Source: Xiphias gladius (taxonomy: Eukaryota > Chordata > Actinopteri > Istiophoriformes > Xiphiidae). From it: 64,000 nt of DNA. This document shows, piece after piece, positions 6,538-56,335 of this stretch. Under the pieces are notes generated by a model. That model ran no database searches. It was not told where the DNA came from and saw only the letters and a program-made list of their open reading frames with translations. The stretch covers positions 14,899,501 through 14,963,500 of the forward strand of contig NC_053413.1 of assembly GCF_016859285.1 (NCBI RefSeq), written 5' to 3'. Every line of letters begins with the position of its first letter. Position 1 is the first letter of the stretch. Position numbers and translations under genes: made by a program.

Positions 6538-16155
<9,618 letters not shown>

Positions 16156-25541: not shown

Positions 25542-28500
25542 ATGAACAAACCACCACAGCCTATAACGGGACCCACTTCTGTCCCAAACCCTGCCCCTTC
25601 CCCTGGATTGACACAGGTGAGAGTCACTGACCTTGTAGAATTCAAGTTGTTTAGGGAGTTTAAAGTTTGGTAACATCTATTTTTGCTCTATTCTCTCCTG
25701 TCAAGGCTGCCTACGGCCCTGGGCAACCCCCTTCTCTTGTTTTTGCCACCCCTCCACCTCCACAAATGAACTCTGCACCACAGCCAAGACAGGTATTGTG
25801 CATCGCATGTTTTTTACCTCTTTGCTAAGGTTTTTGCATTCAGAGTCTAAGTATGTGATATGTTTTGCCTTGTTTGAGAACCCTCCCTTTCCTGCTATTT
25901 CACAAAGATCTCTGACATGGCTTCTCCTGCTATAAGGCTTTGGCTAAATCTGTGTATGTGTTTGCTTGTTATAGCCTATTTGTCATCTTTCTCCTTGAAT
26001 GTCAATCTTGACTTCTTTCCTCTCTTCTGCTGTCCTCCCAGTTTGCTGCAGGGCCCCGTACTTTACACCAACAGGTACTAACACCCCTCTCTTTTCCTTA
26101 CATCCCCTCTGACTCCTTAGTTTAATGCATGCTTTAAGTTCCACATGTTGGAGAATTGGACGAGAACGCAGTAGTGTCTGTGAGATGAGTTAACTTTTCC
26201 TGAGGTCCAGTAATGCTTCCATATCTCATTCTAGAAATGTGTATTTCTCCATAAGACCCATTGTGCAGGGTCACAATGTTTTAAAAGCAGAGCCCACCCA
26301 GGCCTAGGGCTGGGCGATTTTATTGTATTAAAATTTTTGTTTTTGAACAATTGAAAATGCCTAAAATGCAAAATTGAGATGATTATTCTGCTGCCACTCA
26401 AATGCCAGCACCAGCAGTTCTCTGTAGTTACAACACAATCGTAGGCTTTCGCTGTATCCTTGGGCATACCTGCATGTCTGAGCTTTGCTGGTCAACAACA
26501 AGTTTGAGTATTGGCAGCCGCAGTCACTGAAGACAACGAAACAAAAGTAGTCATGTTACCTCACTGATATGGAAATAGTTTGGTTTTGCAAGGCCCGATG
26601 TGGAGCAGAGAACCTTGCTGTGTGAACTTTCTGAAAACTCTTATTAAAATTAAAAGTAAGCACGACAGACCTGTTCCAGCACCTGAAACAAAAGCATTCT
26701 GTGGAATGGGAGCAATTTGTGTCTCATGCTATCCCCCGTCACAATTCCAAAACCACATCTGAAAAACAGTCAACTTAAGCTGCCTGATTTTTCCACCTTC
26801 ACAATGAATGGCAAAACAGGTAATTGTTATTGTTTGTTGATAATGCACAGATACAGCTATAGTTCTTAATAAAGAAAAGTATATTTTTGAATTGCATCTT
26901 GTCTTGAATTCATGTAGGCAGAAAAAAAATCAATTGAAATCGTGACTCATCCGTAACAAGGGGAAAAAAATCGAGATTTAATTATTTGGCCATATCGCCC
27001 AGCCCTACCCAGGAATTATTTATTCACTTCATTCGTCCTGCATCTGCATATACCTGCAGTATATTATATATTATAGTATTTTATTTTTTTTTACCCCCCT
27101 GCTTCTCTGCAAAACATCATACCAAACTTGTCATATTGACAGAGTAACTGACTGTACAGTGTACTGTCATTTTTTTTTTTTTTTTTAATCATTTTGTGGT
27201 CACGTTGAAAATCAAAACTGGAACTGGCTTATTTGCAACTTTAGATAACCCTTACATGCATTGACACTGTTGACGCCTGACTGGGGGTCAGCTTAAAATT
27301 TTAATGTTAAAGTGAATTGAATTTTGGTACTTGCAGCATTCTAACATGAGTTTCTGCATGCGCCTGCAGCCCTTAAAACGATTCTCTAATCACTCAAAAC
27401 TGGGATTGACGAGACTTGAGGGGATCCTACGTGTATGCAGACCTGTAGAGTTGCATGTGCCGCTAAGATTGTTTGAGCTCACTGTTCATGACTCAGAGAT
27501 ACACTGCTGCCTTTCATCCCCTTCCTTCTTACACCTTGTAATCTCAACCTTCCTCATTGTCTGTTGTCCTCAATCTCACTCCCTCTCTTGCTCTCTGCTC
27601 ATGTGTTGTGCGGCTGAAGGGTGGATACAGAGCATTACAGGTAACAGCTTTTTTTCTTCGTTTCGCCCCCCCCCCTTAACCTTGGCTAACCTCAGTGTGT
27701 CAGGGAGACATGACACCCAGTACAATTTAGACTCTGTGTAACCCAAGAACTGAACTTGCTGTACACATTGGCAGTTGCTGTGAGTGCATTGCTTCCAGTA
27801 AAGACACTAAGTGCACAAGCAGAACAAGAGGCTTGGCCGTGCTAAAATACATTCTTCATCGTTCTTTCCCTCCGTTTCTTCTAATCTGTTCTCCAGAGTT
27901 ACTATCCAAACCGACCGGCCATGGCAACCAGTGCTCCAAGGGTACAGACAAGTAGTGGCCCTCGACCTGTTGGACCTACTCACGTCTACCCGCCCAGCTC
28001 CCAGATGATGATGATTTCCCAGCAACAGCTGTCTTTCGCTGGCTCCCCTCAGGGCTACTTCATCACCCCCCCTGGACAGGTTGGTTCACATTAATAATCA
28101 TCAGTTCGTTAAAATGGCACTCTCATTACTGCTCTACCCAACAACCTGCCCATATAATACTGTGTGCCTGCTCCTTATACTAGGCTACTGAGTTCCTTAA
28201 TGTGGTGTCTTTTAGACTTAGTCAGCCCTACAATTATTTAGGAATCCCTATTTAACCTACTGGATTTTCTGAGGGCTCATGTAATGTGTTTTGCTGCCAC
28301 AGAGGACTTCAGTTCTTCAGGGATCAGATCAGGGTATAAATCATCTCTTCAGCAGCCCAGAATTACTGGTGTCACAGAAAGTCATGATGGGAAGCATAGA
28401 AAAACTGTGTAAAAAATGCTAACAGCCAGAGAAAATGATTCTGACCGCTTCCAAGAGCCTGACAGGAGAGTGTGTGAGCATGTGACTGATAGAAACAAAT

Positions 28501-31500
28501 GAAGAATTAGCTACATTTGAAAACACATTTGGACAAACTACACAAATGTTATAGGTTCTATTCTTCCAAAAACAGGTGTTTTGAAAAGGTGGGTCATCTT
28601 TCATTAGTGTCAGTACAGTACCTTACTGTGGGAGATGGCAGAGATAGACCTGAAGCTCCCGTATCTCAATTATTCCCTATATTGTAGTTTTTTCTGACTC
28701 TTTATTTTGTGTCTGCAGTACCGGGCCCCATACATGCCTCCTACTCAGCAGTATCCCGTGACCAGCGGTACAGCAGGCTTCTACCCGGGAACCAGCCCTG
28801 CTGAATACCCCACTTATGGTGAGGGGTTTTTACCCAAGACCAACAACAACCAAGCACAACCATAAACATGATAATTATCTTTCAAAAGAGGTTAAACCTA
28901 TCGTAAGCATCAAAAACCCAAATTTATTTTAAGTTGAAGCATCTGGTTTCAGTCCACACCCATTTGCACACCTCTTTGCCCACTACATGTCGCTGGATGT
29001 GTCATGGTTTTGCCTGGCGGGTTGCTGTGTTTTAATGTTTCTCTGGGTCAAAACACTACTATATGTGGTGAACTGCCACTTGCATGTGGTCTGGCTTAAT
29101 TCTGCTTTGGCCTGTGTTCTCTCTATCTGCAGTCTCACCTGATGCTGCCTCACAGGTTCCATGAAATGGCTTTGAGACTTTTGCTTCTGCTTCTTTTTTG
29201 TTCTTTAGCTGGATATATGTCCATATGAAACAGGATGTTGGGGTGGGATTTAATGATAAGATGGAACTAATTTGAATATTAATGACTTTTAAAAGATTAA
29301 GCAGGACAAAGAGTCCAAAATGAAAGGCAAGCATTTATTTAAGTATGATCGTAACCACTGCGCTTTTTTCAATTTATTTATACATTTATTTTTATTTATT
29401 TATTTTGAACATTATTGGAAAATGTCTCCCTAAACAGACCTGTGTTACTGGTGCAAATGCTCATGTTCATGACAAATGTTGTTCTGCAGATTTTTTTATT
29501 TTTTTTTTCTCCCCCCCATGAAGGATCAAACTAAAACCTCACATTTTATTGGCTTATACAATACACACCCCTGAGTGCAAAATGGTACAGTGATGAAAAC
29601 TTTAAACTCTCCAGGCAGAAGAGAATGATTTTGATTTTAATTATTTGCAAAAAAGCTGATATTTGTTTGGCATAAAAGAACAAGATGCAGCCAGGAACAT
29701 GAGGAAAGAGTGCAGTAAAGGCATTGTTCATTTCATGGGACCTTTTTTAACACCCTGCTTCCTCTGGATCCTCTCATTAACTCATTCTGCATCTGTCTCT
29801 TCCTGCCCTCTCTCCTTCTTATCTTCCTCTCCCGTCCCTCACTCCCTTCCTCTCCTTTGCTGCGTTGGTTCAGAGCCCTCTCTTGCTGCGAGGGAGAGGC
29901 GGGGTGGTGGAGGGAGAGGAGGCGGGCGAGAGAACGGCCGTCTCTCTCTCCACGGTGCTCCTCTCACCTCCCAGCGCTACCCCGGTGAGTAGTGTGTGTG
30001 TGTTGGTCAGCAGGCTTCGGTGGCAAAAATCTCTGTAGCACTTCCTGTCTCTAGTAGTGTTGTTAATGTGTTTTTCTTTTTGCAACAGGTATACATTTTA
30101 CATGTAAATGGGATGCAAAGTGTAGGCCACATACACAAAATAAAGGGGTGATATTCTTAATTTCAAGAACTATTCGCAAGCACCAAAAAAAAAAATTCAC
30201 ATGCTAAATATTTTTAATAAAATGGTGGAGCGTTAGCAAAATGAATAATGGCACACTTTACCATCCTCTGATCCATGAAATCAGCTGACTTAAATTTTCT
30301 GCTGACAAGCAGCCTGCCTACACAGTGCCGATGTTGAGCTGAGAAGTCCGGTACAGTGTGCTGCTGCCGGCCAGCAGATCTCCTGCTAGCTGGGTACTCT
30401 ACGCACATTTCCTAGCCACGGTCTGGAATTGAAGGTCATTACTTCAAAAGCTTGCGTCCTAACCGATGGCATTCTGAATATGGAAGTCACACAGGCTAGC
30501 TTCTTCTGTAGGAGGGGGCAATTGCATACTAAACTCCCATGGTTTCATAGTTTCAAAGGTTATATTTGTATGTATCTTGAGCCACACAGCTCATATAGGC
30601 TCTCAGTGCGGACCCTAGTTTTTGTGTTCCTCCAGGAATCTCCACTCTGTAACTGCAAAATCTGGGTTTTTTTGTGTATGCGTGTTTGTCGATCATCAGT
30701 AGGGCTTCCAGCTGTGGAGACACTGATATGGATTTTTAGCAAACACAGAAGTTTTCAACAAGCAAACGTGTATATATAGCGGCACCTTGAAGCCCTGTTT
30801 ATGACAGTTACACACGTAATTGCATGCCAAACATGCCAAATACAGAATTTTTGGTCATAACCACAGGAACAAAAAATCTTGTGAATCTTGGCTGGATAGT
30901 CATTTAATCTAAAATTGCACTTGAGTATTGTTTTCTTTTCATTAATGCTTTTTGTTTCATTCCAACCTTACAGCAGGAGCATACTATCCAGCTCAGCCGC
31001 AGTACTCTCCATCTGTCCAGCCTGCACCGGTCATGATCAACCCCGCCCAGCAACAGCAACAAGCCCCCCCTCCTCAGCAACCACCGGCACAGTCACAAGG
31101 CCCACTAAAGAGGGAACGCAAACCGGTAGTGTGTCACAACAAAAGAGCAGCATATCTCTTGTCTGGGGTCAAAAAAAAAATTGAATGGAGAGAGAGTGTA
31201 TTGTCTGTTCAATGTGGAACTTTCCCTTTTACCTCAAAATAACAATAGTATTTATTATGGTGGGTGGCAGCTATAGATCAGGATCGTTACATACTGTTTG
31301 TACTTTATTGTTGCATACGTGTTTTGTGGAAACGTAACCAATATTTGCGGTTTCTCTCGATAGATAAGAATACGGGACCCCAACCAGGGTGGGCGTGATA
31401 TCACAGAGGAGATTATGTCAGGTGGAAGGTCCACTACCACACCAACTCCCCCACAGGTAAGAATGCTTTGGGGAAGACCACTTTCTGTTGACTTAATGAA

Positions 31501-34500
31501 ACTCTGATCTTAAGTACACAAGGTTATGTACATAGTTGAAGACAGAATTGTTTCATAAATTATATCACTGATTGTAAGTAAAGTTTTTCTTATTTTAGAA
31601 ATATAAACTGCTGTCAGCTATTCTTTACTGACTTAAGGTACTGTTGTGTGGAAAATTAAGTAATGAAAAGCACAGTAAAGGACAGAGCTCTAACTGGTGA
31701 AACTGGACATGTAAAAGAACATTTTCAGTTTGCAATTCTGACTTAAACTGATAGTTGACTTTCCAACGATGCAGCAATTTTCCTAAATTTGAAGCAAGAA
31801 ATATGAGTATTGTACAGTTTAAGGTCTTAAGATGTAACTACATGTAAGGAAATAACTAACAAAACATATAGCTTTAGTAGGAGATCATTGCTTTAATCCA
31901 TTTTGTAAGAAAAGCCCGTGCTGATGGAGAGAGAGCGCGCCCCCCCCCCCCTTCGGAATTCTCTACATACTACCCCCGAACTTATTTATTTTTCACAAAG
32001 GTGGTTGCATGTTTTCACATCTCTATGGTAACATCTCATAATTAACAACTCAAATCTAACATGGAGTTTCACAGAACAAGCAGAAAGCCAAAGGAAGTGT
32101 ACACAGTTATGCACTGTTGTTGTTTTATTTGAGCTATGGTTACATTTTTAGGCTTGTTTGCATTAACTTGCAACTGCATTGAGTTGCCAGAAGGGAAAAA
32201 CCAGGAAAAATACGAGAAGCACTTTTTTAAATAAAAAAACACTACAGCATTCAAAATAAGCACTGAGTTGAATCAGTACCTCTTTGATGCAGTCTCTAAA
32301 AGTAAAAATGCCATTTTGTAATGAATTGTATTGAATATGTGTAGGGGTACATAACAAGCTGGCAACTTGGTGTTTTTCCTATTGAATCGGTGGTTTAAAA
32401 ACAGCTATTTTATGATTGTAGGCCTCCATAGCAGATGTAAGTCCTGCACAGACCAACGGTGAAGTTGTACAGCCTGTCACTACAATGACGAGAAGAGGTG
32501 AGTACATTTTTCTCATTTTGGTTTGCACAAAAATACAAGCTTCCCATGTTCCCCATTTTCCTTTATGACTGATATGTGACTATTTCATGTCTTTCATTGG
32601 GCAGATGAAAATGTGGAGCCTCCTGTTAGCACTGAAACCCCTCCACCTCCTGTCACAGCAAACACAGAGCCTGTGGTGGAAGCCAAACAGGAAATGGACA
32701 GCCAGATGACACCATCTGCCGAATCAGCTACACAATCTGTAGGCCCCACAGCTGCTACTGAGGTGCCATCCCCGTTGATAAAGGACCAGCAGTCTCCCTC
32801 TTCCCTCTCTCCTGCAGTAGCATCTACTACTACTCCTGATGAGGTGGTAAATAAAGACGATACTAAAGTCAGTGACACAGTAGACGCTCCTGTTGGCCCT
32901 TCAGCATCAGTAGCAGACGCACCTGCCAAAATGGAGGAACCACAGGCCTCTCCCCCAGCTCTAGCTGAGAGGGGACCAGAAAAGGTGGAAAAGAAATCAG
33001 AGCAAGTGAAGAAAACTGAAAAAGAGGGGCAGGTCACCAGCTCCAAGTTAGAGCATGCAGTTGAGGTTGCAGCAGTAGTTACCCCTGTTAAAGTAGCAAA
33101 AGAAGAAACAGCTACAAAGACAGAAGATGAAATGTCGCAGCCTCCACTCTCTACACAGGAACCGGCTGCTCCACAAACCCAGAATGCTGCCCCGAGCTCT
33201 GGCCCCGAACCTGAATTCACACCGGTTGAAACAGCAAAGCCTCTTCTCTCAAACGGCCTTCCTCAGGACATTGAGGAATTATCTGTGGGCAGGGGACTTT
33301 CACACACTACACCCCTTGACCAGCCCGACGCTTCTCAATCTCAGGAATCCACACCTGTAGCTAAAACAGCAACGCCAGCTGAGGAGAGGGAAGAGGAGGG
33401 AGGAGAGGGAAGAGGAGAGGGAGGAGGAGGGGGAGGAAAAGGAGGAGGAGGAAAGGGAGGAGAGGGAGGAGGAGGAGAGGGAGGAGGAGGGGGAGGAGAG
33501 GGAGGAGGAGGAGGAGAGAGAGGAGGAGGAGAGAGGAGGAGGAGGAGGTGAAGGAGAAGGAAAAGGAGGAGGGGGAGGAGGTGGAGGAGGTGGAGGAGGT
33601 GAAGGAGAAAATTGAGGAATCTCCTCCCGCCTCTGTAAGCTGCCCTACAGAGGAATCTACTATGCAAGGTAGTTGATTCTCAGTTACATTTATGATTGTC
33701 ATTTTTATCATTCTGCTGTTACGTGAGATTTTTAATGTCACCAATTTATCCTTTCTTTGAAGCTGCTATGTCTGTGCCAAAGAAGAGGAAGAACATGAAG
33801 GAACTCAACAAGAAAGAGGCCATTGGGGACCTCCTGGATGCCTTCACAGAGGTGTGTATCAATCCAGATAGAGCTTAAGAGTCTCAGCAGTTTCAGCTGA
33901 ATAAATACTATTTTTGAGGATATGACATTCTGTCTATTCATCTCTTCCTGTTTTGTTTGCTGCAGGAGCAGGGTTCCAAGCCTGCTTCTGAACCTTCGTC
34001 CACTCAGGCCGACCCGGTCCCTGTTGCTCCAGCTGAACCTCCCGTCGAGGCTGCAGATGAGACCTGGGAGGAGAAAGAGGACAAGCAGAATGCAGAACAC
34101 GACGGGCCCAAAGCCACACCTAAGCCAACTGAGCAGAAATACCAGTACAAAGAAGGTAGTGTGTTGTGTATAGTTGAACAGTAACAGCAACTGTTGCTAC
34201 AATGATTATTTTAGGTGTGCGTGCACCCTAAAGTTAAAATTTTAGGGGTAAATTTAAAAAAAATGAAAGGGTACACGATAAATGTGAGGTCGGATGAAGA
34301 TTTCTTTGCGGCTTAGGTCTTCAAGTTTCAGAAAGAACTATATACAGGTCCTCTTTTTTAAGAACACAATTGGTTAACAATTCAAATCAGCACTGGCAGT
34401 GTGGAATATCAGGAGCGAGATTTGGAGAAACCGACTCACTGTACGACAAGTTTGTGCCTCTTCACGTGTCCCCTTTAAGGCTCATTACAAAGTTTTCCTA

Positions 34501-37500
34501 CCCTCCTCAGTGCTACAAAGCTGTACATAACTCTAAGCTCCTTTATGTTTAAGAGACGATGTGTCCTCAAGAATATGTTTTCCACATTACATTTAATCCT
34601 CTGCATTTTCACGTCTCTTGTACATCCCTCAGAACAATGGAAGCCGATAGACCCAGAAGAGAAGAAGCGGTACGACAGGGAGTTCCTCCTGGGCTTCCAG
34701 TTTATCAGCGCCAGTATGAACAAACCCGAGGGCCTGCCTGTCATCAGTGATGTGGTCCTGGACAAGGTAAGTGATGTTTTGCCTAATGCGGCTGTGGAGT
34801 AATAGGCGCTTTGGTTGCATTTGTATCTGCAGTCTATAACATTTAACTTCTATTATGCTGAAAACTTACGAGTCATAAAGAAGTAGAACCGTATATTAAA
34901 ATGGCTGGTAAGGATTAAGCTGATGCTGCGGGAGGCATATTCCCCTTAAGCTGATATTTTATTACAAGTTAATATGTAAATAACATTGCGCTGTGATAAT
35001 TAGTCAGTGGCTGTTAAATATCCTCTCTTCTGAGCAGGTTGAGTAAACCCACAAATATAAAGATCATTTAGGCGTTTTAATAATTTGTTACCATTACTGT
35101 CACAAATAGATGCAACTGATGACAGAAAATTAACTTTGCCAACATCTTTCCTTAAACTTGTCCATACAGCGTAGCAGTCTCCCCAACCTTGGTGTATTTG
35201 TGTTAATGGTGGCATCTCTTTTCTTGTAACTGTGACTGTAGAACATCACATTATAGAAAGCTCATGCTTGCTTCACAAGTACCCACTATAAAACTATTAT
35301 TCTAATTAGACTTTGGAACTTCAAAATAGAGGTTGGCATCCTTTTGGAATATTCTGGTTTTCTGCATTAACTGGTCATGAAATGTTATCTGATTTTCAGC
35401 TCAGTATAGACAGTATAGACAAACGTGTTGTGATTATGTTAATAACACCGAAACAGTTATAATCCTTTGTCTTTATTGAACATACCTCACAGTGCTGGTG
35501 GAAAAAGTAAGTGAATCCTCACTCTTCAGGTCATTCCACAGCATCGCTATTGGGTTAAGGTCTGGGCTCCAAATCTAAAAGCCAGAGTTCCTTTGTTTGA
35601 AGTCATTCTGTAGCAGATTTACTTTGATGTTTTGGGTCATTGTCCTGCTGCATCTCCCAACTAAAGATACCTTTGGGTACTTCACCTATGGCATTATGTT
35701 TTCATCTTCCCAAAAAAATCAACCTTAGTTTCATCAGTCCACAAGACATCCTGTCAATATTGTTGTGGAGTGTTAAGCTGCTCTTTGGCAAACTTTGGTG
35801 TGCAGTGATGTTTCTTTGAAGAGCACCAGCTTTCTCCGAGGTGTCCTGCCATGGACACCATGCTCCATTGCAACCATGCACCATGATTTGTGCAAGGTAG
35901 ACCCATGAATAGAGATGTTATCAACCTCGGATGATTCCTTTAAGCCTTTAGCTGTTACTGAGTTTCTTTTTGACCTCACTGATCATTCTGCATTGTGCCT
36001 TTTGTAGTCATCTTAGCTGGGAGCCCACTTCTAGGGAGAGTATTCACAGAAATAAATCCTCTCCATTTATAGACAGTTTGTCTGACTTTGGACTGATGAA
36101 TATCTAAACTCATCAAGATGACTTTGTGATCCTTTTGCAGCTTTATGCAAATCAACAATTCTTGATCATGAATCTTTTTTGTGAGGCATGGTTCACATCC
36201 TCAAATGCTTCTTCTGAATAACAAACTCGCACCTCCAATCTCGTTTCCTTGACTGGACTCCAGGTTTGCTAACTCCTGACTCAAATTAGCATTTGTTATT
36301 GTCATTAGCTGAGGGATTCACATACGTTTTCCAACCCACACTGTGCATGTTTGAACGATGTATTCAGTTTGGACAAGAACAATACAATGATTTGTGTGTT
36401 ACTTAAAATAAATAGTTTGTACCCTAAAGAGATGACCATATATTAAGACACATTATTACATAAATGCAGGTAATTCCAAAGGATTCACTTACTTTTTTTC
36501 AATTACTCGTTTCTTTTTTTGCATATTGAAGAGACTTTTTCTTAAAACTACTTGATGCGTAATAATTTAGTACTTTCAGTGTTGTTTGTGTGTGAACTAG
36601 ACACAATGACCACTCGGTGGTCACTGACATAGAAGCTGCAAGGAAGTATGTGTGTCATTTTACTTCTTACTGTACCTTCAGGTGAACAAGACTCCCCTTC
36701 GGCCTGCTGACCCAGCTCGACTGATGAGCGTTGGTCCTGATTTTACTCCCTCGTATTTGGGGAATCTTGGGAGCAGATCAGTGGGAGGACCACGAGGCCC
36801 AGTGAGTGAATTTGTTTGTTCCCTTTCCTGGGTGGTTTGTTGTTAAAACGAAAAAGGGACAAGAATTTCTGTTAGATTTGTTGAGGTTTATTTCTACAAA
36901 CATTTCCAAATATGTATCCCTACTACTCCCTTCAGCCTCCCGGGCCACGTCGCTCCCAGCAGGGTCAGCGTAAAGAACCCAGGAAAATCATCAGCAGCAT
37001 GTCCCTAAATGATGACGTACAACTCAACAAGGCTGAGAAGGCCTGGAAACCCTCGGCGAAGAAGTCCACTCGCAGCCGCGGCAGTGAAGAAGCTGAAGAA
37101 GACGATACAGAACAGGGCAAGACTCGAGAGCTGTTCAAGCGTCTGCGCAGTATCCTCAACAAGCTGACTCCTCAGAAGTTTCAGGAACTGATGAAACAGG
37201 TGACAGAGCTGACAATAGACACGGAGGAGAGGTTGAAAGGAGCCATTGACCTCATCTTTGAGAAGGCCATCTCAGAGCCCAACTTCTCTGTGGCCTACGC
37301 CAACATGTGCCGCTGCCTAATGGGAGTAAGTCATGTGATTGTGTCTGAATCTTGTGCCTGTATTATTTGCTCCAATGATGACTTCTGTTTTGAGCCACGT
37401 GTCTGGGCCACTGAAAGTTCATGATGGTATTGAGGAACTGAAGGAGCACACTCTAATCACTGTAAACTTTCATTTTCTGTTAAATAATTTTAACTTTTTA

Positions 37501-40500
37501 TGCCATATAATTATTAGTGAGATGAAAAATGTATATTCATTAAAAGATACTAATTGCACTCAATGTTTTCCTCCTTCAGTTGAAAGTTCCTACTTCGGAC
37601 AAGCCCGGAGTTTTTGTCAACTTCCGTAAACTGCTGCTCAACCGGTGCCAGAAAGAGTTTGAGAAGGACCAAGATGATGATGAGATCTTTGAGAAGAAGC
37701 AAAAAGAGATGGAGGCTTCCAAAGATGTAAGAAAAGCAATCCTCCACGTCCCAACCACCACAGCCTGTTGTTTATTTAGACTAAACTGATTATTTAACAC
37801 CCAAAAGTAAGCATAAACATCTACTTGTATCTGACCTCAGGAAGAAGAGCGTGAGCGCTTGAGGGTGGAGCTGGAAGAGGCCCGAGACCAGGCCCGCCGC
37901 CGTTCACTGGGTAACATAAAGTTCATAGGCGAGCTCTTTAAGTTGAAGATGCTGACAGAGGCCATTATGCACGACTGTGTAGTGAAACTACTTAAGAATC
38001 ATGATGAAGAGTCTCTAGAGTGTCTCTGCAGGCTGCTCTCCACTATTGGCAAAGACCTGGACTTTGAGAAGGCCAAGGTAAGAAAAGCATGAACTCAGAT
38101 GGATGAAGGGTGAATTGTGAATTACGTCTCCAGTGATGACTTTTATTTTTGTGCCACGTGTCTGGGCCACTGATAATTAGTGATGGGATTGAGGAGCTGA
38201 GGAGACAAACACATAAATCAATCATTTATTCATATACACTCACGGTCCATAGCCATGACTAAAAAGCCGCTTTTTTTTCTGTCCCTGTCAGCCTCGTATG
38301 GATCAGTATTTTAACCAGATGGACAAGATCATCAAAGAGAGAAAGACCTCATCCAGAATCCGCTTCATGCTGCAAGACGTCCTGGACCTCAGGAGGGTAA
38401 ATATTAATTCATCCATAACAGTATATTGAAATAAAGAGCTGATAAGAGTCTAAAGGTAGTGACTAATACTCAGAAGTATTTCTGATTGAGCAGAATTGTG
38501 TTATACTGTGTGTGAAGTGAGAGATTATAAATCACATGGGAATCTTGAATGTTGATATCAAACGACTGGTGTTGGAACATTTCAAACTGTTTTATAACCA
38601 TCTTCCGTCTGTGATCCACAGAGTAACTGGGTGCCTCGTAGAGGAGACCAGGGTCCTAAAACAATCGACCAAATCCACAAGGAGGCAGAGATGGAGGAAC
38701 ACAGGGAACAGATCAAAGTCCAGCAGCAGCTCATGTCCAAGAAAGAGGGAGGTGGAGGCAGGATGGGAGGCAGCATGGGGGGCCGAGGCCCTCACACACC
38801 AGGAGGTGGCCGGCCTACCCAGCCTCAGGATGAGGGGTGGAACACAGTGCCCATCTCCAAGAACAGGCCCATCGACACCACCCGCCTTAGCAAGATCACA
38901 AAGGTAATGGAAGTTTTCACGAAAATTCTTGCCTAAAATCTTGGTGCCTGGAACCCTAAGCTTCAGCTTTTCATTCCGTTTCTCTCATGGCCTTGATGCT
39001 TCTCAGCATAGTCACATATAGTGTTTGAAGTCTTGATTTCTTTTGCTAAGTTTTTTTTTTTTAGATTTAAATTTTCTTAAGTTTAACTTGATGATTTGAG
39101 ACTTGGCCGAATGTAAATGTAACTGGTTTGTAAATGTAACTTTTTCTGTTTCCATGCAGCCTGGTGCTCTAGACTAGGAAGCAGGACAGAGGAAGCAGGA
39201 CAGAGGAAGCAGGGACAGAGGAAGCAGGACAGAGGAAGCAGGGACAGAGGAAGCAGGACAGAGGAAGCAGGACAGAGGAAGCAGGACAGAGGAAGCAGGA
39301 CAGAGGAAGCAGGACAGAGGAAGCAGGACAGAGGAAGCAGGACAGAGGAAGCAGGACAGAGGAAGCAGGACAGAGGAAGCAGGGACAGAGGAAGCAGGAC
39401 AGAGGAAGCAGGACAGAGGAAGCAGGGACAGAGGAAGCAGGGACAGAGGAAGCAAGGGACAGAGGAAGCAAGGGACAGAGGAAGCAGGGACAGAGGAAGC
39501 AAGGGACAGAGGAAGCAGGGACAGAGGAAGCAAGGGACAGAGGAAGCAGGACAGAGGAAGCAGGGACAGAGGAAGCAGGACAGAGGAAGCAGGGACAGAG
39601 GAAGCAGGGACAGAGGAAGCAGGGACAGAGGAAGCAGGACAGAGGAAGCAGGACAGAGGAAGCAGGGACAGAGGAAGCAAGGGACAGAGGAAGCAGGGAC
39701 AGAGGAAGCAAGGGACAGAGGAAGCAGGACAGAGGAAGCAGGACAGAGGAAGCAGGGACAGAGGAAGCAGGGACAGAGGAAGCAGGACAGAGGAAGCAGG
39801 GACAGAGGAAGCAGGACAGAGGAAGCAGGACAGAGGAAGCAGGACAGAGGAAGCAGGACAGAGGAAGCAGGACAGAGGAAGCAGGGACAGAGGAAGCAGG
39901 ACAGAGGAAGCAGGACAGAGGAAGCAGGACAGAGGAAGCAGGACAGAGGAAGCAGGACAGAGGAAGCAGGGACAGAGGAAGCAGGGACAGAGGAAGCAAG
40001 GGACAGAGGAAGCAGGACAGAGGAAGCAGGGACAGAGGAAGCAAGGGACAGAGGAAGCAAGGGACAGAGGAAGCAGGACAGAGGAAGCAGGACAGAGGAA
40101 GCAGGACAGAGGAAGCAGGGACAGAGGAAGCAGGGACAGAGGAAGCAAGGGACAGAGGAAGCAGGACAGAGGAAGCAGGGACAGAGGAAGCAGGACAGAG
40201 GAAGCAGGGACAGAGGAAGCAGGGACAGAGGAAGCAGGACAGAGGAAGCAGGGACAGAGGAAGCAGGACAGAGGAAGCAGGACAGAGGAAGCAGGACAGA
40301 GGAAGCAGGGACAGAGGAAGCAGGGACAGAGGAAGCAGGACAGAGGAAGCAGGGACAGAGGAAGCAGGACAGAGGAAGCAGGACAGAGGAAGCAGGACAG
40401 AGGAAGCAGGACAGAGGAAGCAGGGACAGAGGAAGCAGGACAGAGGAAGCAGGGACAGAGGAAGCAGGACAGAGGAAGCAGGACAGAGGAAGCAGGGACA

Positions 40501-43500
40501 GAGGAAGCAAGGGACAGAGGAAGCAGGGACAGAGGAAGCAGGACAGAGGAAGCAGGGACAGAGGAAGCAAGGGACAGAGGAAGCAGGACAGAGGAAGCAG
40601 GGACAGAGGAAGCAGGACAGAGGAAGCAGGACAGAGGAAGCAGGACAGAGGAAGCAGGGACAGAGGAAGCAAGGGACAGAGGAAGCAGGGACAGAGGAAG
40701 CAAGGGACAGAGGAAGCAGGACAGAGGAAGCAGGGACAGAGGAAGCAAGGGACAGAGGAAGCAGGACAGAGGAAGCAGGACAGAGGAAGCAGGGACAGAG
40801 GAAGCAAGGGACAGAGGAAGCAGGACAGAGGAAGCAGGACAGAGGAAGCAGGACAGAGGAAGCAGGACAGAGGAAGCAGGACAGAGGAAGCAGGGACAGA
40901 GGAAGCAGGGACAGAGGAAGCAGGACAGAGGAAGCAGGACAGAGGAAGCAGGGACAGAGGAAGCAAGGGACAGAGGAAGCAAGGGACAGAGGAAGCAGGG
41001 ACAGAGGAAGCAGGGACAGAGGAAGCAGGACAGAGGAAGCAGGACAGAGGAAGCAGGACAGAGGAAGCAGGACAGAGGAAGCAGGACAGAGGAAGCAGGG
41101 ACAGAGGAAGCAGGACAGAGGAAGCAGGGACAGAGGAAGCAGGGACAGAGGAAGCAGGACAGAGGAAGCAGGACAGAGGAAGCAGGACAGAGGAAGCAGG
41201 GACAGAGGAAGCAGGACAGAGGAAGCAGGACAGAGGAAGCAGGGACAGAGGAAGCAGGACAGAGGAAGCAGGGACAGAGGAAGCAAGGGACAGAGGAAGC
41301 AGGACAGAGGAAGCAGGGACAGAGGAAGCAAGGGACAGAGGAAGCAGGGACAGAGGAAGCAGGGACAGAGGAAGCAGGACAGAGGAAGCAGGGACAGAGG
41401 AAGCAAGGGACAGAGGAAGCAGGACAGAGGAAGCAGGACAGAGGAAGCAGGACAGAGGAAGCAGGACAGAGGAAGCAGGACAGAGGAAGCAGGGACAGAG
41501 GAAGCAGGGACAGAGGAAGCAGGACAGAGGAAGCAGGGACAGAGGAAGCAAGGGACAGAGGAAGCAGGACAGAGGAAGCAGGGACAGAGGAAGCAAGGGA
41601 CAGAGGAAGCAGGGACAGAGGAAGCAGGGACAGAGGAAGCAGGACAGAGGAAGCAGGACAGAGGAAGCAGGACAGAGGAAGCAGGACAGAGGAAGCAGGG
41701 ACAGAGGAAGCAGGGACAGAGGAAGCAGGACAGAGGAAGCAGGACAGAGGAAGCAGGACAGAGGAAGCAGGGACAGAGGAAGCAGGACAGAGGAAGCAGG
41801 ACAGAGGAAGCAGGGACAGAGGAAGCAGGGACAGAGGAAGCAGGGACAGAGGAAGCAAGGGACAGAGGAAGCAGGGACAGAGGAAGCAAGGGACAGAGGA
41901 AGCAGGGACAGAGGAAGCAAGGGACAGAGGAAGCAGGACAGAGGAAGCAGGGACAGAGGAAGCAGGACAGAGGAAGCAGGGACAGAGGAAGCAGGACAGA
42001 GGAAGCAGGACAGAGGAAGCAGGACAGAGGAAGCAGGGACAGAGGAAGCAAGGGACAGAGGAAGCAGGACAGAGGAAGCAGGACAGAGGAAGCAGGACAG
42101 AGGAAGCAGGACAGAGGAAGCAGGACAGAGGAAGCAGGACAGAGGAAGCAGGGACAGAGGAAGCAGGACAGAGGAAGCAGGACAGAGGAAGCATGACAGA
42201 GGAAGCAGGGACAGAGGAAGCAGGGACAGAGGAAGCAGGGACAGAGGAAGCAGGGACAGAGGAAGCACGGACCGAGGAGCCAGAGACAGGGGTCCAAGCA
42301 AAGATCTCGCAGGTATAAAGCCCAAACAGTAAAAGCAAAGATTTAAAATGGATATAATAGGAGAAGAAAGAAGTTAGAAGTAGAAGTAGAATTGTGTATA
42401 CTAATGAAATGAACATGCAGGAATGAGGAGTACTGCGCTTTGACTTGCATTGTTACCTTACTTTTCTGCAGCTAAGCGTGAGAGTGCCCCCACTCCTCCT
42501 CCTTCTCTTCCTAAACCTGCTTTGACTGAGGAGGAAGTGGAGAAGAAGACGAACGCCATCATTGAAGAATATCTCCACATCAATGACTTGAAGGTACAAA
42601 CATAACACCATGCACACATGCATCCCAACACTGAATTTTACTTAAACACATGCATGTTAACAGGTTTGCAAGGAAATGCTTGGATTATAAAGCCACTCTG
42701 ATGGCCAGCATCTCTCCTTGTTGTTCTGGTGCTGTAGGAGGCGTTGCAATGTGTGGCGGAGCTCAACAGTGCCTCTCTGCTCTATGTGTTTGTGCGGAAT
42801 GGCGTGGAGTCGACACTTGAGCGCAGCACCATTGCTAGAGAGCACATGGGCCTGTTGCTACACCAACTTATAAAGGCAGGGACATTGCCCACACAGCAGT
42901 ACTACAAAGGGTGAGTATTTAACAGGAAACACATCACACTGTGTTCCCAATGCCTGAAAGGTTTTTTTTTTTTTTTTCCTTTTCCCACATCGAGTGCATT
43001 TTCTGAACTCTTGACGGTGAGATTTGAGAAAATGAAACTAAAGAGCATTTAAAGTGAGATTGATTGCTTTGTGTTTTTGGGGTTGTAGGCTACAAGAGAT
43101 CCTGGAGGCAGCAGAAGACATGGCCATAGATATACCTCACATCTGGCTCTACCTGGCTGAACTCATTACCCCCATGCTCCATGAGGGCGGCATCCCTATG
43201 GGAAAGCTCTTCAGGTGAACTTCCATGCTGGAACTCAGCAAAAAAGGATTTAATCAAATAAGTCTAATCAAGCCTAGTTCCTTTTGATTAAGGATAGAGG
43301 CTGACGGACGTTGATACCTCTGACTGATGGCTCCCTGTCTGTAAATAGCATTTGATCCTTTGTTTGCATAGATTGAGCAAGATACGTCCTTAATTTTTTT
43401 TGTTTTTATTTATTTTTTTAATGTATATGTCAGTAGGATGTAAAGCAGCATTTTCAGGGTTTTTGGCAGTTCTTGAGGCCTAAACACGCAACTCGAAAAC

Positions 43501-43784
43501 ATCAAACCTGAATCAGTAGGATAACTCGGACAACCTTTTATCAGCTTCTCACAAATGTTCCGAATGTCTGAGTCAGATTTATGGACATATTTAATACATC
43601 TTATGGTCAGTTCACGTATCCTGGCACAGATGTTACAGAATCACACTCTTTTTACTGCAGGAACTCAAAGTTACTCAAATGTCACTGAGCCATCTACCAT
43701 CTGCCGTCTGAAATAAGGAAGTTTGCAAGTCAAACATAAAACTAGGTCACTTATTAGCAGTTGGACCACTTTAAAAAAAGGGCT

Positions 43785-43819
<35 letters not shown>

Positions 43820-46800
43820 ACATCAAATATTTAGAACAATCTTGCTTTTTTTTACCCTGAGTGTAACTATGGCTTTATTAATAATGGCAGTAAATAAAAC
43901 AACAGAATAATAATTTGGTTTAAAGAAAGTGAAAAGATTAATTTAGTATAATTGTGTTTTCAGGGAGATCTCAAAGCCTCTCGTGCCTCTGGGGAAGGCC
44001 GCCGTGCTGCTGGTACAGATCCTCAAGTTGCTCTGCAAAGGAATGGTGCGTCCTACTCCAATCTCAAAAATCCGATCCTGGATGCTTTCACATGCATACT
44101 GAGCTCTCATTTAAACAGCTCTTTCGTCACGGCCTGTTGTACTTCAAAAAACTCCCTCATACTTTGTAGAGATTTCAGAATGACTGGATTTAAATTATTT
44201 TTTTTTCTTTCCCCCTCATTAGACCCCTAAGAAGGTCGGAGCCATGTGGACAGAGGCTGGGCTGAACTGGAGCGATTTCTTGCCTAAGGATGAAGACGTC
44301 AACAAGTTTGTCACAGAACAGGTGTGTAGGAATTGGTACTGGACGATATAACACAAATAACTTAAGACAACCACTCAGGCTGGGTTGGGAGCGTTGGGAA
44401 GAAGCTTTTCTTGATGGGGATAGATGGTTCTCTGATTTGTTTTGTTTGTTTTTTGTTTAACATAAGGAGAGACTGTAAGCACTCATATAGAGAAGGCACA
44501 CTCCATAATTAACAGCATACAGTCTAATAGAAAAATTACACAATTTGCCAATATTTGTCTTAAATATTTATAATATAGAAATAAATGCTGCAAATCATCG
44601 ACACAAATGCAGACCTAATGCGCTATTAGGGGTATGATATTTTCAAAAAGATCCAGGTCAAACGATTTTGAACTGGCACATAATTCATTTGAAATAATTT
44701 GAACGAAATCCACAAGTCAGTAGGGCAGAAATAGGTTGAGCCCTCAGCCTCCCCACAAGGCGAACTACTTGAAGTGGCCTGTTGTGCCTATAGACTTTAA
44801 ATATTGAATTCGAACAGGTCAGAACAGTTTGGAATTTTTTTTTTTTAAATTGTTTTTTTGTTGTTTTTTTAAAACCATGTTCAGAAGAATGTTCACATTT
44901 CACATAAAAAGTAACAGCTCTATGCCCTATAGCTGTAACTCCATGGTTGCAGAAAAGAATAACAATAAATAAATATAACTCTAATATATTACAATGAAAT
45001 TGTGACTATTATGGTGCTGTTTTTTTAATTTTTGGTTTGGTTTGTTTCTGTGTTGGATTTTGGCGGTAAAAATTAAAGCCAAAAACAAAAAAAAACTTGT
45101 TTCAAGAAAAGATTGCTGCAATATTTAAAAGTAAACAACAAGTCAATTACTTACAAGAGTATCCTCAAGCTTTCTTTTTTGGTTACGTATTTCAGAAAGT
45201 GGATTTCACCACAGGAGAGGAGATGGAGTCAAAGGAGGTGGGTAAGAAGAAGGTCCTGAGTGGAGAAGAGCTCAGCAAACAGCTGGACAGACTCCTTCAG
45301 GACAAGGCCAACAACCAGCGTATCAGAGACTGGGTTGAGGTGTGTGACAGTACTAGCGATGTTGCTCATGTTTTTCTCAGTGGGTTTTACGTCACACTGG
45401 AATATTCCATGCAAGTTTTTTAATAGTTATAAAAGTTACATTAGTAATTTAAGTTCCCCCGTTAAACTTTTTTTTTTTTTTTTTTTTGGGGTGCGGGGGT
45501 TCTCAGGCTAACTTGGATGAACAGCAGATGGCTTCCAACCAGTTTGTACGGGCATTGATGACATCAGTGTGCCAGTCTGCCATCATATGTAAGTATGACT
45601 GATGCAGCAAGTTAGAAGTAAGAGCTGCCTTGTTAGTCACCACTGTCGAAACTGTTTCAGTATTGCTGATATACCAGTATCACAGAACACCAATCACAAT
45701 ATGTGGTTGATTTTTGCTGCTCAGGAATTAAATGTTTATAGTGGCAAAAGAGAAGTTTGATCTCTGATCGTGGTTTGTCCTGCAAATGTTTGTTACTCCT
45801 CTCTTCAGGCGACAACCCGTACAGGGTGGATGCACGGCAGATCAACCAGAGGGCCAGTCTGCTGCAGAAATACCTGTGTGACGAGCAGAAAGAGCTGCAG
45901 GCCCTTTACGCCCTCCAGGCTCTGATGGTGCACATGGAGCAGCCTGCAAGTCAGTGTCCTGCTATTAGTCTACGTCTGCTAGGAGTAAAGTTAGAGCTAG
46001 ACATAGGTAGAAGTAGACAGAATAACAAATACCATACAATACAGTAGACCTATAAGAAATTGATGGAGCTCCTAGTTTTTTGAGTATTGATTTTTAGGAT
46101 TCAGTCAAATATGCTTTATTATTGAGACCTTGCAAACGTTGTGATATTTGTGACTAAATAAGCAAAAAACCGTTTAAATGAATCTTCTTTATAACTTAGG
46201 TTTTTTTTTTTTTTAAACTCTCAAAACTGTCAAGAGAGTGAAGCTGCAAAAAAAGTCTTCCTGCCGTTTTATTTGTGTCCAAATTCTGAATGTGACATTT
46301 ATGCAGTACATTAAAAAAAAAAAAAAAATAATGCCGCAATGCTACAACAAAAGTGGTTTCCATGACACGTTCACTACTCTCTGCTCACTGTCCAACGATG
46401 CAATGCTTCCATTTGATAGATGCAACACTACACCTGTGATCCCTATATTAAATTCTGATTGGTTGGAGGAAAAGTGATTTTATTTATTTATTTATTTAGC
46501 CAACTTCAAACCATTGAGAAGAGCGGCGATAAAAACACTGACAGAGAGATAAACAGTATTGTTCTAAATTCCGCAGAGGGTAGTAGGTTCATGTGATGTT
46601 TAGGGCATTTCATCAAATATGATAGTAATAGTTAAACATCCACTTTTGGTAAGGATCTGTTTATTTCTTTACCAGCCATTAAGACTCCCATCCACACTAA
46701 GTAGATGCTGTTTTCGTGTGAAAACGACTTGTCTCCACACGAGTGTTTCTAGGTCATTTTCATAGAGACCTCTGCTCGTGGTGAAACACCTGAACCACAG

Positions 46801-47803
46801 ACAAACAGAATACAAAATCAACATGAATGGAAGTTAATGATTACTACTGTAATCGACTACATCAATGTTTAATATGAGAGATCCAAAAAAGTCAGAAGCA
46901 ACAGGAAGTTCTATTTACTGCTACACAGCTCTAGACAGTGACTGGGCAGTCTGCGTGAGCATTTTTGCAAAAGCTTAGTTTTCCCTGCATACACTGAAAC
47001 ACCAAACCAGCGTTGTAAGACTCATCCACTCCAGAGAGCATTCTGAAAAACCCAAAAGCATTTTTTTAGGTGAGAAAAATGCAGTTTCAGCCTTTCATCC
47101 AGTCTAAAACAGAGAGAGAGAGATGCATTTTTTTCAAATTTAAATAGCTTAATGTGGACATAATCTCAGAAGATCTCTCAAGACTTCTCTAAATACTGAC
47201 ATTTGTTGAAAATTGGTATTTGACAAGTGTAGCTGCTTTTGCAATTGGTTAATTGTGGTCTCTTTTATTTTTAAGTAGGAAATAATGAACTGTGGCAAGA
47301 CAAAAGTCTGCATTATGATGCCATTTGCCAAACACAGGAGATATGCATTAGCAAAAATGACTTTGCATTGACTGAAGGACATTGGTTATTTGGTTAAAAA
47401 CAGCCCAACCAGACAAACCTTCAACATGCAGCAGACACTGAGCCTGTATGAGCCTGTATTTATTGCAGGGCTGTTGTATCGTATAGTTTGTGTTACTTTT
47501 TGTTCTTCCCCCCCAGCAACAAAAATCGGGTGCGGTCTAATTTGCTGCAACAGAACCGTCAGTTATTTCATTATCAACGTCAGATCGGAACTGACCTGAC
47601 CTGTGTGTTCTGTCTCTGCAGACTTGCTGCGGATGTTCTTCGACGCCCTGTACGATGAGGACGTTATTAAAGAGGAGGCTTTCTACAAGTGGGAATCCAG
47701 CAAAGACCCTGCGGAGCAAACGGGCAAAGGTGTGGCCTTGAAATCCGTCACCGCCTTCTTCACCTGGCTCCGCGAGGCCGAGGAGGAGTCTGACAAGGAC
47801 TAA
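25542..47803 (+). CDS. eif4g1: eIF4G1 translation initiation scaffold (two reading-frame breaks)
   Basis: Scaffold of eIF4F. Exons (exon 2 onward): 25542-25616, 25706-25792, 26042-26074, 27620-27640, 27897-28079, 28719-28818, 30974-31125, 31364-31456, 32422-32497, 32605-33668, 33763-33851, 33966-34155, 34633-34766, 36682-36801, 36936-37325, 37580-37726, 37841-38077, 38292-38396, 38622-38903, 39160-42312, 42472-42593, 42738-42910, 43089-43214, 43964-44045, 44223-44321, 45196-45339, 45507-45588, 45809-45949, 47622-47803. Seen: PABP-binding segment ([15 protein letters not shown]) at the 31125/31364 junction; eIF4E motif YDREFLL at 34671-34691; MIF4G domain in exons 16-20; MA3 in exons 22-26; W2 in exons 28-30, ending EEESDKD. 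Phases join everywhere except exons 11 and 21. Exon 27620-27640 is a 21-nt microexon, less certain than the rest. Teleosts often keep two eif4g1 paralogues; which one this is cannot be told here. Confidence 0.93.
26305..27007. mobile_element. hAT-type MITE in eif4g1 intron 4
   Basis: The ends are inverted: TAGGGCTGGGCGAT at 26305 and ATCGCCCAGCCCTA ending at 27007. The flanking 8-mers are CCCAGGCC and CCCAGGAA, matching at 6 of 8 positions as a decayed 8-bp target duplication, typical of hAT. The 703-bp interior has no transposase frame. Confidence 0.8.
27008..27619 (+). other. rest of eif4g1 intron 4
   Basis: Contains a T-run at 27171-27186 and no recognised element. A minor open frame at 27331-27741 overlaps the microexon at 27620-27640 but in itself shows no domain. 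Confidence 0.4.
28819..30973 (+). other. eif4g1 intron 7 with candidate cassette exon
   Basis: A 2.2-kb intron. Its one notable content is an exon-like segment at 29874-29984, described separately. The rest is AT-rich with poly-T and no identified repeat. Confidence 0.5.
29874..29984 (+). CDS. eif4g1: candidate alternative cassette exon of eif4g1 (RG-rich)
   Basis: The segment is preceded by a long pyrimidine tract (29812-29870) ending 'ggttcag' and followed by the consensus donor 'gtgagt'. It is 111 nt, a multiple of three, and in the phase imposed by exon 7 (ending 28818, phase 1) it has no stop. It reads [18 protein letters not shown] and continues with an Arg/Ser/Leu-rich stretch, then rejoins exon 8 in phase. 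Composition is strongly GC-rich compared with the surrounding intron. I do not recall this exon in mammalian EIF4G1. It could be a facultative exon adding an RGG-like patch just before the PABP-binding segment, or a chance open segment. Confidence 0.5.
32605..33668 (+). CDS. eif4g1: eif4g1 exon 11, acidic tract with frame break
   Basis: The large exon between the PABP and eIF4E regions encodes a Pro/Ser/Thr/Glu-rich linker that is poorly conserved in the family. It enters and leaves in phase 1, so its length should be a multiple of 3; it is 1064 (2 mod 3). The frame open from 32607 reads through '[11 protein letters not shown]' and then glycine-rich text to a TGA at 33549-33551. The downstream frame, one base earlier, reads [19 protein letters not shown] and joins exon 12 correctly. 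The break therefore lies in the pure purine tract 33375-33550, where a middle portion is Glu-rich in yet another frame. Confidence 0.8.
33375..33610 (+). repeat. GA-rich purine tract within eif4g1 exon 11
   Basis: About 235 bp of almost uninterrupted G and A built from GAG, GGA and GAGAGG words, coding for a polyglutamate-type segment. It is prone to slippage and to sequencing or assembly error. Confidence 0.95.
34671..34691 (+). other. eif4g1: eIF4E-binding motif of eIF4G1
   Basis: The seven codons give YDREFLL, the YxxxxL-phi motif that docks on the dorsal face of eIF4E. It is identical to the mammalian motif as I recall it and is surrounded by the conserved EEKKR and GFQF residues in exon 14. 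Confidence 0.95.
34767..35335 (+). other. 5' part of eif4g1 intron 14
   Basis: No exon or named repeat is seen before the Tc1-like relic. Confidence 0.4.
35340..36500 (-). mobile_element. degraded Tc1-like transposon in eif4g1 intron 14
   Basis: Long inverted ends are visible: 'ggtggaaaaagtaagtgaat' (about 35490) against 'attcacttactttttttc' (about 36483-36500), and an outer pair near 35345 and 36470 containing 'ggaat(t)a(c)ctg' words. The minus strand carries fragments of a Tc1/mariner transposase, including a helix-turn-helix piece at about 35985-36158 and a DNDPKH-type catalytic-region remnant near 35600-35650. Frameshifts and stops show it is dead. Confidence 0.85.
35520..36200 (-). pseudogene. 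Tc1-like transposase remnant
   Basis: Minus-strand translation at 35985-36158 includes [16 protein letters not shown] and [11 protein letters not shown], matching the DNA-binding domain of Tc1-like transposases in order. Further downstream on the minus strand, 'gacaatgacccaaaacatca' corresponds to the D-N-D-P-K-H block. The frame is broken in several places and the middle third is lost or unrecognisable. Confidence 0.8.
37369..37447 (+). ncRNA. snord66: C/D box snoRNA, SNORD66-like, in eif4g1 intron 16
   Basis: C box ATGATGA (37375-37381), D' box CTGA (37411-37414), C' box ATGATGG (37421-37427) and D box CTGA (37438-37441) are in the right order. A perfect terminal stem GCTCC/GGAGC closes a 79-nt unit. 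The guide before D', CCACGTGTCTGGGCCA, is the SNORD66 guide as I recall it and can pair with the 18S rRNA segment GGCCCGGACACG with one G-U pair; the fifth base upstream of D' pairs with a C (human 18S Cm1272). Human SNORD66 is also hosted by EIF4G1. Confidence 0.9.
38126..38206 (+). ncRNA. snord66: second SNORD66-like C/D snoRNA, in eif4g1 intron 18
   Basis: C box GTGATGA (38133-38139), D' CTGA (38170-38173), C' GTGATGG (38180-38186) and D CTGA (38197-38200) are closed by a perfect GTCTCC/GGAGAC stem. It has the same D' guide as the intron-16 copy, so both should direct the same 18S modification. The two copies differ elsewhere, which argues for an old duplication kept by selection on boxes, guide and stem. 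Confidence 0.9.
39160..42312 (+). pseudogene. eif4g1: eif4g1 exon 21, coding exon expanded and broken by a minisatellite
   Basis: The acceptor 'tccatgcag' and donor 'gcag|gtataa' are intact. The 5' edge encodes PGALD, as expected after KITK in exon 20, but the next codon is TAG (39175-39177), exactly where the tandem array begins. The 3' edge reads (RDRGS)n, then [15 protein letters not shown], joining AKRESAP of exon 22 in phase 1. The exon should be 1 mod 3 long; it is 3153 (0 mod 3). The family's roughly 100-150-residue segment (NNQL...NRFSALQ region) is absent. Skipping this exon would also shift the frame and stop early in exon 22. Confidence 0.8.
39176..42285 (+). repeat. 3.1-kb minisatellite, 14/15/16-bp units
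   Basis: About 210 tandem units of three discrete kinds: GGAAGCAGGACAGA (14), GGAAGCAGGGACAGA (15) and GGAAGCAAGGGACAGA (16), in irregular order. The + strand is T-free throughout except one T at about 42195 ('gcatgacag'), so no stop codon exists in any + frame inside it, and the complement has three long spurious open frames. The 15-bp unit translates as RDRGS. Confidence 0.97.
43215..43963 (+). other. eif4g1 intron 24
   Basis: 749-bp intron with a T-run at 43788-43815. No snoRNA or repeat recognised. Confidence 0.4.
44322..45195 (+). other. eif4g1 intron 26
   Basis: AT-rich intron with T-runs near 44830; nothing else recognised. Confidence 0.4.
45950..47621 (+). other. eif4g1 last intron
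   Basis: 1.67-kb intron holding poly-T and poly-A runs (46200, 46312). No exon, RNA gene or named repeat is seen. Confidence 0.4.

Positions 47804-52818: not shown

Positions 52819-56335
<3,517 letters not shown>

Follow-up and report, generated by a model that had tools for sequence, protein, structure and literature searches.

Does the eif4g1a gene of the swordfish, Xiphias gladius, carry a minisatellite of more than 3 kb inside one of its coding exons, or has the sequence been put together wrongly at this point? The question is raised by a window of 64,000 nucleotides (NCBI RefSeq assembly GCF_016859285.1, contig NC_053413.1, positions 14,899,501 to 14,963,500 of the forward strand; all coordinates below are those of the window), for which an initial annotation, made from the sequence alone, described a nearly T-free array filling a spliced exon of eif4g1. 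The array is present in the assembled sequence, and as assembled the upstream exon does not lead into it in an open frame. We favor, with a probability of roughly 0.6, the reading that it is a native coding minisatellite, possibly truly expanded, whose left join is wrong and whose unit lengths have been made unreliable by assembly or consensus error.

The identity of the gene is well anchored on both sides of the array. The peptide of the intact exon directly upstream (38622..38903, forward strand) matches human eIF4G1 (PDB 6zmw) with an E value of 5.8e-27 and is 100% identical to P0121, the public Xiphias gladius eif4g1a protein, which is the top relative among the matches listed (best 120). 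The exons of P0121 map within the window, so that the gene named eif4g1 in the initial annotation is specifically the swordfish eif4g1a, with a coding span on the forward strand at 25542..47800. Exact spliced mapping places residues 1-1146 without a mismatch at 25542-38903 and does the same for the protein from KRES onward at 42474-47800, the exon directly downstream of the array (42472..42593, forward strand) being intact and beginning with (A)KRES; the piece between these two blocks maps to the array edges. The tblastn comparison behind the 100% identity of the upstream exon covered pieces above 85% identity. MIF4G, MA3, and W2 domains are found on P0121 by Pfam, as befits an eIF4G1, and 27 of the 29 joins of the model are GT-AG (17 of 18 in the first mapping, both of those next to the array exon, and all 8 in a mapping that tried GT-AG only), the two exceptions being two repeats. 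It is also at these repeats that the reading frame fails to continue across all exons, at a TGA (33549) and a TAG (39175), each in the entering frame.

The array itself was called twice by Tandem Repeats Finder, at 39176-42278 with period 14 (score 5013) and at 39176-42289 with period 29 (score 5120), and since the score exceeds 5000, chance is no serious explanation. A unit parse of 39176..42289 (forward strand) divides it into 212 segments, in good agreement with the approximately 210 units of 14, 15, or 16 bp first described: 106 exact 14-mers (GAGGAAGCAGGACA), 76 exact 15-mers (GAGGAAGCAGGGACA), 27 exact 16-mers (GAGGAAGCAAGGGACA), and 3 others. The claim that the strand is T-free but for one base is likewise borne out, with the sole T of the 3.1 kb at 42194 and a T-free run of 3018 bases from 39176, the runner-up in the whole window being 168 bases. 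The description of a stretch made up of purines only, from which triplex DNA could form, on the contrary, does not hold, as 429 of the 3114 bases are C, 86.2% are purine, and the longest purine run is 8.

This composition bears on one possible role of the array, namely that it acts as a DNA or RNA structure (R-loop, triplex, or G-quadruplex) regulating eif4g1a. A sense-strand GC skew of about +0.5 no more than suggests R-loop potential, and a G4Hunter score of 0.71 together with 105 two-tier G2 motifs leans the same way toward G-quadruplexes. However, the array lacks G3 motifs with loops of 1-7, and without a purine run above 8, triplex formation is unlikely; the triplex (H-DNA) or purine-only version, which calls for a long homopurine run, was dropped. 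No array of comparable size was seen among the 273 relatives' proteins that we fetched, and a regulatory role for such a structure is hardly credible.

Whether the array can be translated depends on the frame in which it is entered. It is flanked by an AG acceptor (..ATGCAG|CCTGGT, 39160) and a GT donor (..TCGCAG|GTATAA, after 42312). At its 3′ end (..RLSKITK|GTAATG) the upstream exon is in phase 0, and the entering frame gives PGALD followed by a TAG at 39175-39177, of which the T comes from the unique flank and the AG from the array. The second forward frame of the exon is closed by a TAG at 39170 and a TGA at 42194, while the third is open across the whole exon (open reading frame 39123-42332) and exits correctly into (A)KRES, and this open frame receives no input from the upstream exon. 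The array alone, without its flanks, is stop-free in two of the three forward frames, and over the exon one of three is open, not every forward frame as had been proposed. Furthermore, the exon at 39160-42312 measures 3153 bp (0 mod 3), whereas the next exon (CT|AAG CGT.., from 42472) requires one carried base, and therefore the frame at the start differs from the frame at the end. P0121 itself jumps a 3014-bp stretch (39172..42185, forward strand, from PGAL to RKHDRGS) without GT-AG sites, with an alternative placement one base to the left, and enumeration of the placements excluded a GT-AG intron that would conceal the array in this model. A miniature exon of 4 bases, closing ahead of the GT at 39164, was considered and is probably too small. 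It follows directly from the sequence that the stretch as assembled is unreadable from the upstream exon; as it stands, it is not a coding exon. The locus illustrates that a remarkable exon may be deduced from a raw assembly although the entering frame stops at the first repeat.

What stands at this site in other fishes was sought in the 273 fetched proteins, drawn from three protein searches (best 120 matches each). Counted were the 153 segments with both flanking anchors, among them P0121, more than one isoform for some species, and a few proteins from outside the fishes; the other 120 proteins, in which no ordered anchor pair was found, were left out. In the relatives' proteins the stretch reads PGALDFNNQLLAPGG.., with small changes, and continues through three parts, A, B, and C. 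Landmarks of all three are held by 110 of the 153 segments, of two by 24, of one by 9, and of none by 10. P0121 is one of these 10 and the sole one of them with repeat units, several of the others being evidently incomplete models. Including anchors, the 110 complete segments span 184-255 residues and contain 0-11 repeat-like units (in different species and isoforms), by a loose pattern on the last 120 residues that undercounts, for example, in the eel protein P0256. In these relatives GSRDR units of 15 bp precede PSKDL in frame, and it is close to certain that this minisatellite of exon C is the source of the swordfish array. An unstable coding repeat is thereby indicated in fish eIF4G1a, between MIF4G and MA3. 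At the same place, P0256 (Anguilla anguilla eIF4G1a) carries a long in-frame GSRDR/GTQDR array, of 15 units by another loose pattern, an expansion which preserves the reading frame. A paper on an eif4g1 repeat in fish was not among the literature matches listed.

The three parts appear to be separate exons. UniRef models that read into introns (21 hand-picked, 6 of them without segment) break repeatedly near KPASG(E/D)Q|, RRVPQR|, and |SSSS, which suggests, at the level of relatives' protein models rather than of DNA, that A, B, and C are encoded separately in other fishes. Since they appear so, the array would have the acceptor of exon A on its left and the exon C donor on its right. The acceptor and donor which had been described as preserved do both flank the array, yet judging by the relatives they belong to two different ancestral exons. 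An ordinary single exon with an expanded middle was rejected, as relatives appear to hold three exons here; the normal exon of about 500 bp that the initial annotation had envisaged does resemble the relatives' coding length at this site, though split over three exons. At the left edge, 39160..39175 (forward strand) would correspond to the opening 16 bases of ancestral exon A (PGALD plus the T of the in-frame TAG, at 39175), preceded by its acceptor; relatives read PGALDFNNQLLAPGG.. here. At the right edge, 42180..42312 (forward strand) would combine the 3′ edge of the array with the end of ancestral exon C, in-frame 15-mers being followed by the exon C donor, on the combined testimony of sequence, placements, and relatives. 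About 146 residues present in Toxotes after PGALD were not recovered from the swordfish window, and a tblastn search of the window with Toxotes residues 1-150 of the A-C stretch gave nothing convincing (best E value 0.60). The public model P0121 should accordingly be flagged as short of these residues. Conserved exon content is thus missing beside a repeat in an otherwise intact gene, which is the picture expected of an artefact, although a real deletion looks alike.

With the junction TAG, the frame mismatch, and the missing exon content, a giant translated basic/acidic repeat, as first imagined, is unsupported. A milder version supposes that the array is real and translated and that only the left join is wrong, giving a mixed-frame charged linker of about 1000 residues between MIF4G and MA3. 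It can appeal to the frame that is open over the entire exon and leaves it correctly into (A)KRES, and to the units themselves: since they are without T, insertions and deletions within them cannot create a stop, and the repeat could change frame freely while growing to about 210 units. Nevertheless, the entering frame stops as assembled, the T at 42194 yields a TGA in one frame, and a Pfam search of the open frame gave no match at an E value of 0.001. The shifted-frame peptides expected from 14- or 16-bp units match the search pattern in 0 of the 273 fetched proteins. Most full-length relatives among the matches listed are about 1650-1770 amino acids long. We consider a linker of this kind very improbable.

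The favored reading of assembly or consensus error draws on a second lesion in the same gene. At 33381..33607 (forward strand) lies a purine-rich coding repeat of GAG type, acidic, in which the frame from upstream ends at the TGA at 33549 and the frame downstream differs; P0121 jumps 119 bp there, with no GT-AG in any placement found. Over a 40-residue stretch at this repeat, 24 relatives contain 17-72% E and 0-7% G, and P0121 contains 42% E and 28% G. Two purine-rich repeats are thus frame-broken in a gene whose remainder is exactly P0121, and because damage is confined to them, when it would be expected elsewhere too, a decayed pseudogene is disfavored. Together with the landmarks that 110 of 153 segments keep and P0121 lacks, the in-frame TAG at 39175, the frame mismatch, and the absence of shifted-frame matches among the fetched proteins, this indicates that the damage probably belongs to the assembly rather than to the fish itself. 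The seed is evidently the 15-bp GSRDR-encoding unit near the end of exon C, which is in frame in many fishes. In the assembly, the array directly follows the 16 bases that open exon A and stands where the remainder of that exon, exon B, the initial part of exon C, and the two introns that would separate them are expected; half of its units are 14 bp long rather than 15. Errors of assembly and consensus in a purine-rich tandem repeat most probably account for both the join and the unit lengths. The genuine gene would then retain all three exons, together with a repeat that keeps the frame and whose copy number could be large. That tandem repeats give rise to errors in assembly and annotation is documented, with Atlantic cod as the case studied (PMC6868369).

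The order of the units speaks on both sides. The 205 core units, the flank-cut first unit apart, vary at a single site only. Their longest repeated block is 11 units, a length reached in 115 of 300 plain shuffles and, among strings from a first-order Markov model, in 207 of 300. At 38, the Lempel-Ziv count is matched or undercut in 3 of 300 shuffles and in 140 of 300 Markov strings, and being low against the former and ordinary against the latter it therefore reflects neighbor order and nothing beyond. When growth by tandem duplication was simulated, strings as disordered as the observed one arose in 3 of 180 runs if unit types stayed fixed, and in 19, 82, and 156 of 180 runs when 10%, 30%, and 60% of copied units changed type, respectively, in simple simulations with 60 runs per setting and without a gene-conversion model. 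The lack of long copied blocks, and the rarity with which duplication without type change matches the disorder, count in favor of an artefact. Several points weigh against an artefact, however. The unit string is, by the Lempel-Ziv count just given, more ordered than plain shuffles, and a 16-mer follows a 14-mer in 0 of 27 cases, an exclusion that none of 20000 shuffles reproduces; it looks like real linked variants, and simple noise gives no explanation for it. Random read error should affect all unit positions, and the variation is at one site and of three discrete types. It would be unusual for an assembly error to replace two introns together with more than one exon's worth of sequence. 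Finally, assemblers shorten repeats more often than they invent 3 kb, and hence the reads probably do contain a long array.

The main rival of an assembly error is a real deleted-and-expanded allele that has lost function, in which a break in the unstable minisatellite of exon C was rejoined to exon A with expansion. Such a null allele might perhaps be heterozygous or backed by a paralogue. The discrete unit types and the absence of 16-mers after 14-mers point to real DNA variants; the native repeat number differs between species, the 3′ edge of the array holds native-like degenerate units, and, by eye, GAC is common to both sides near the join. P0121 also joins PGAL to the units of the 3′ edge, which, if that model is RNA-based, fits a transcript without the exon content. 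On the other hand, the second frame break (33549) in the same gene would have to be independent, the long copied blocks expected from growth by duplication are not seen, and eIF4G1 is a core initiation factor whose gene is otherwise intact. A real allele of this type is possible, though we think it rather unlikely. If reads proved the array real, a core translation factor would have a natural allele that either has lost its function or encodes a giant linker.

Elsewhere in the window, a FAM131-family exon lies downstream of eif4g1a at 55441-55836 (Pfam PF15010, E value 2.1e-12), and a fish model among the protein matches, P0157, shows domains of eIF4G1 as well as of FAM131, perhaps a fused annotation. 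Open reading frames between 6500 and 15000 (for example at about 11.1 kb) are presumably transferrin-like, and Tandem Repeats Finder reports a TG/TATATG-type microsatellite of about 200 bp at 15356-15582.

Compared with known systems, the locus takes something from each. The MUC1 frame-shifted allele reportedly has one base inserted in one unit. As in the frame-shifted MUC1 alleles of a variable number tandem repeat (VNTR), insertions and deletions within the repeat unit shift the coding frame here; unlike in MUC1, 133 of the 212 segments are exact 14- or 16-mers (106 and 27), and flanking exon content is missing. For frame-shifting mutations in repeats, a review (PMC12776774) cites Kirby et al. 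(2013). As in the tandem-repeat assembly errors of fish, gene damage is linked to a repeat and a public gene model is bent around it; the cases in the available part of that report comprise gaps, missing or masked genes, repeat inflation by polymerase chain reaction, and artificial fusions, none being a 3-kb array in place of exons (PMC6868369). Exonic coding VNTRs are known in mucins, FLG, and ACAN, and functional ones keep units of multiples of three, according to the same review (PMC12776774). The swordfish array resembles these in its tandem units, which in relatives lie in a coding exon, in frame, with a copy number that varies across species and isoforms; it departs from the functional ones in that only 76 of its 212 segments are exact 15-mers, against 106 exact 14-mers and 27 exact 16-mers, so that most units are of 14 or 16 bp and the frame is broken.

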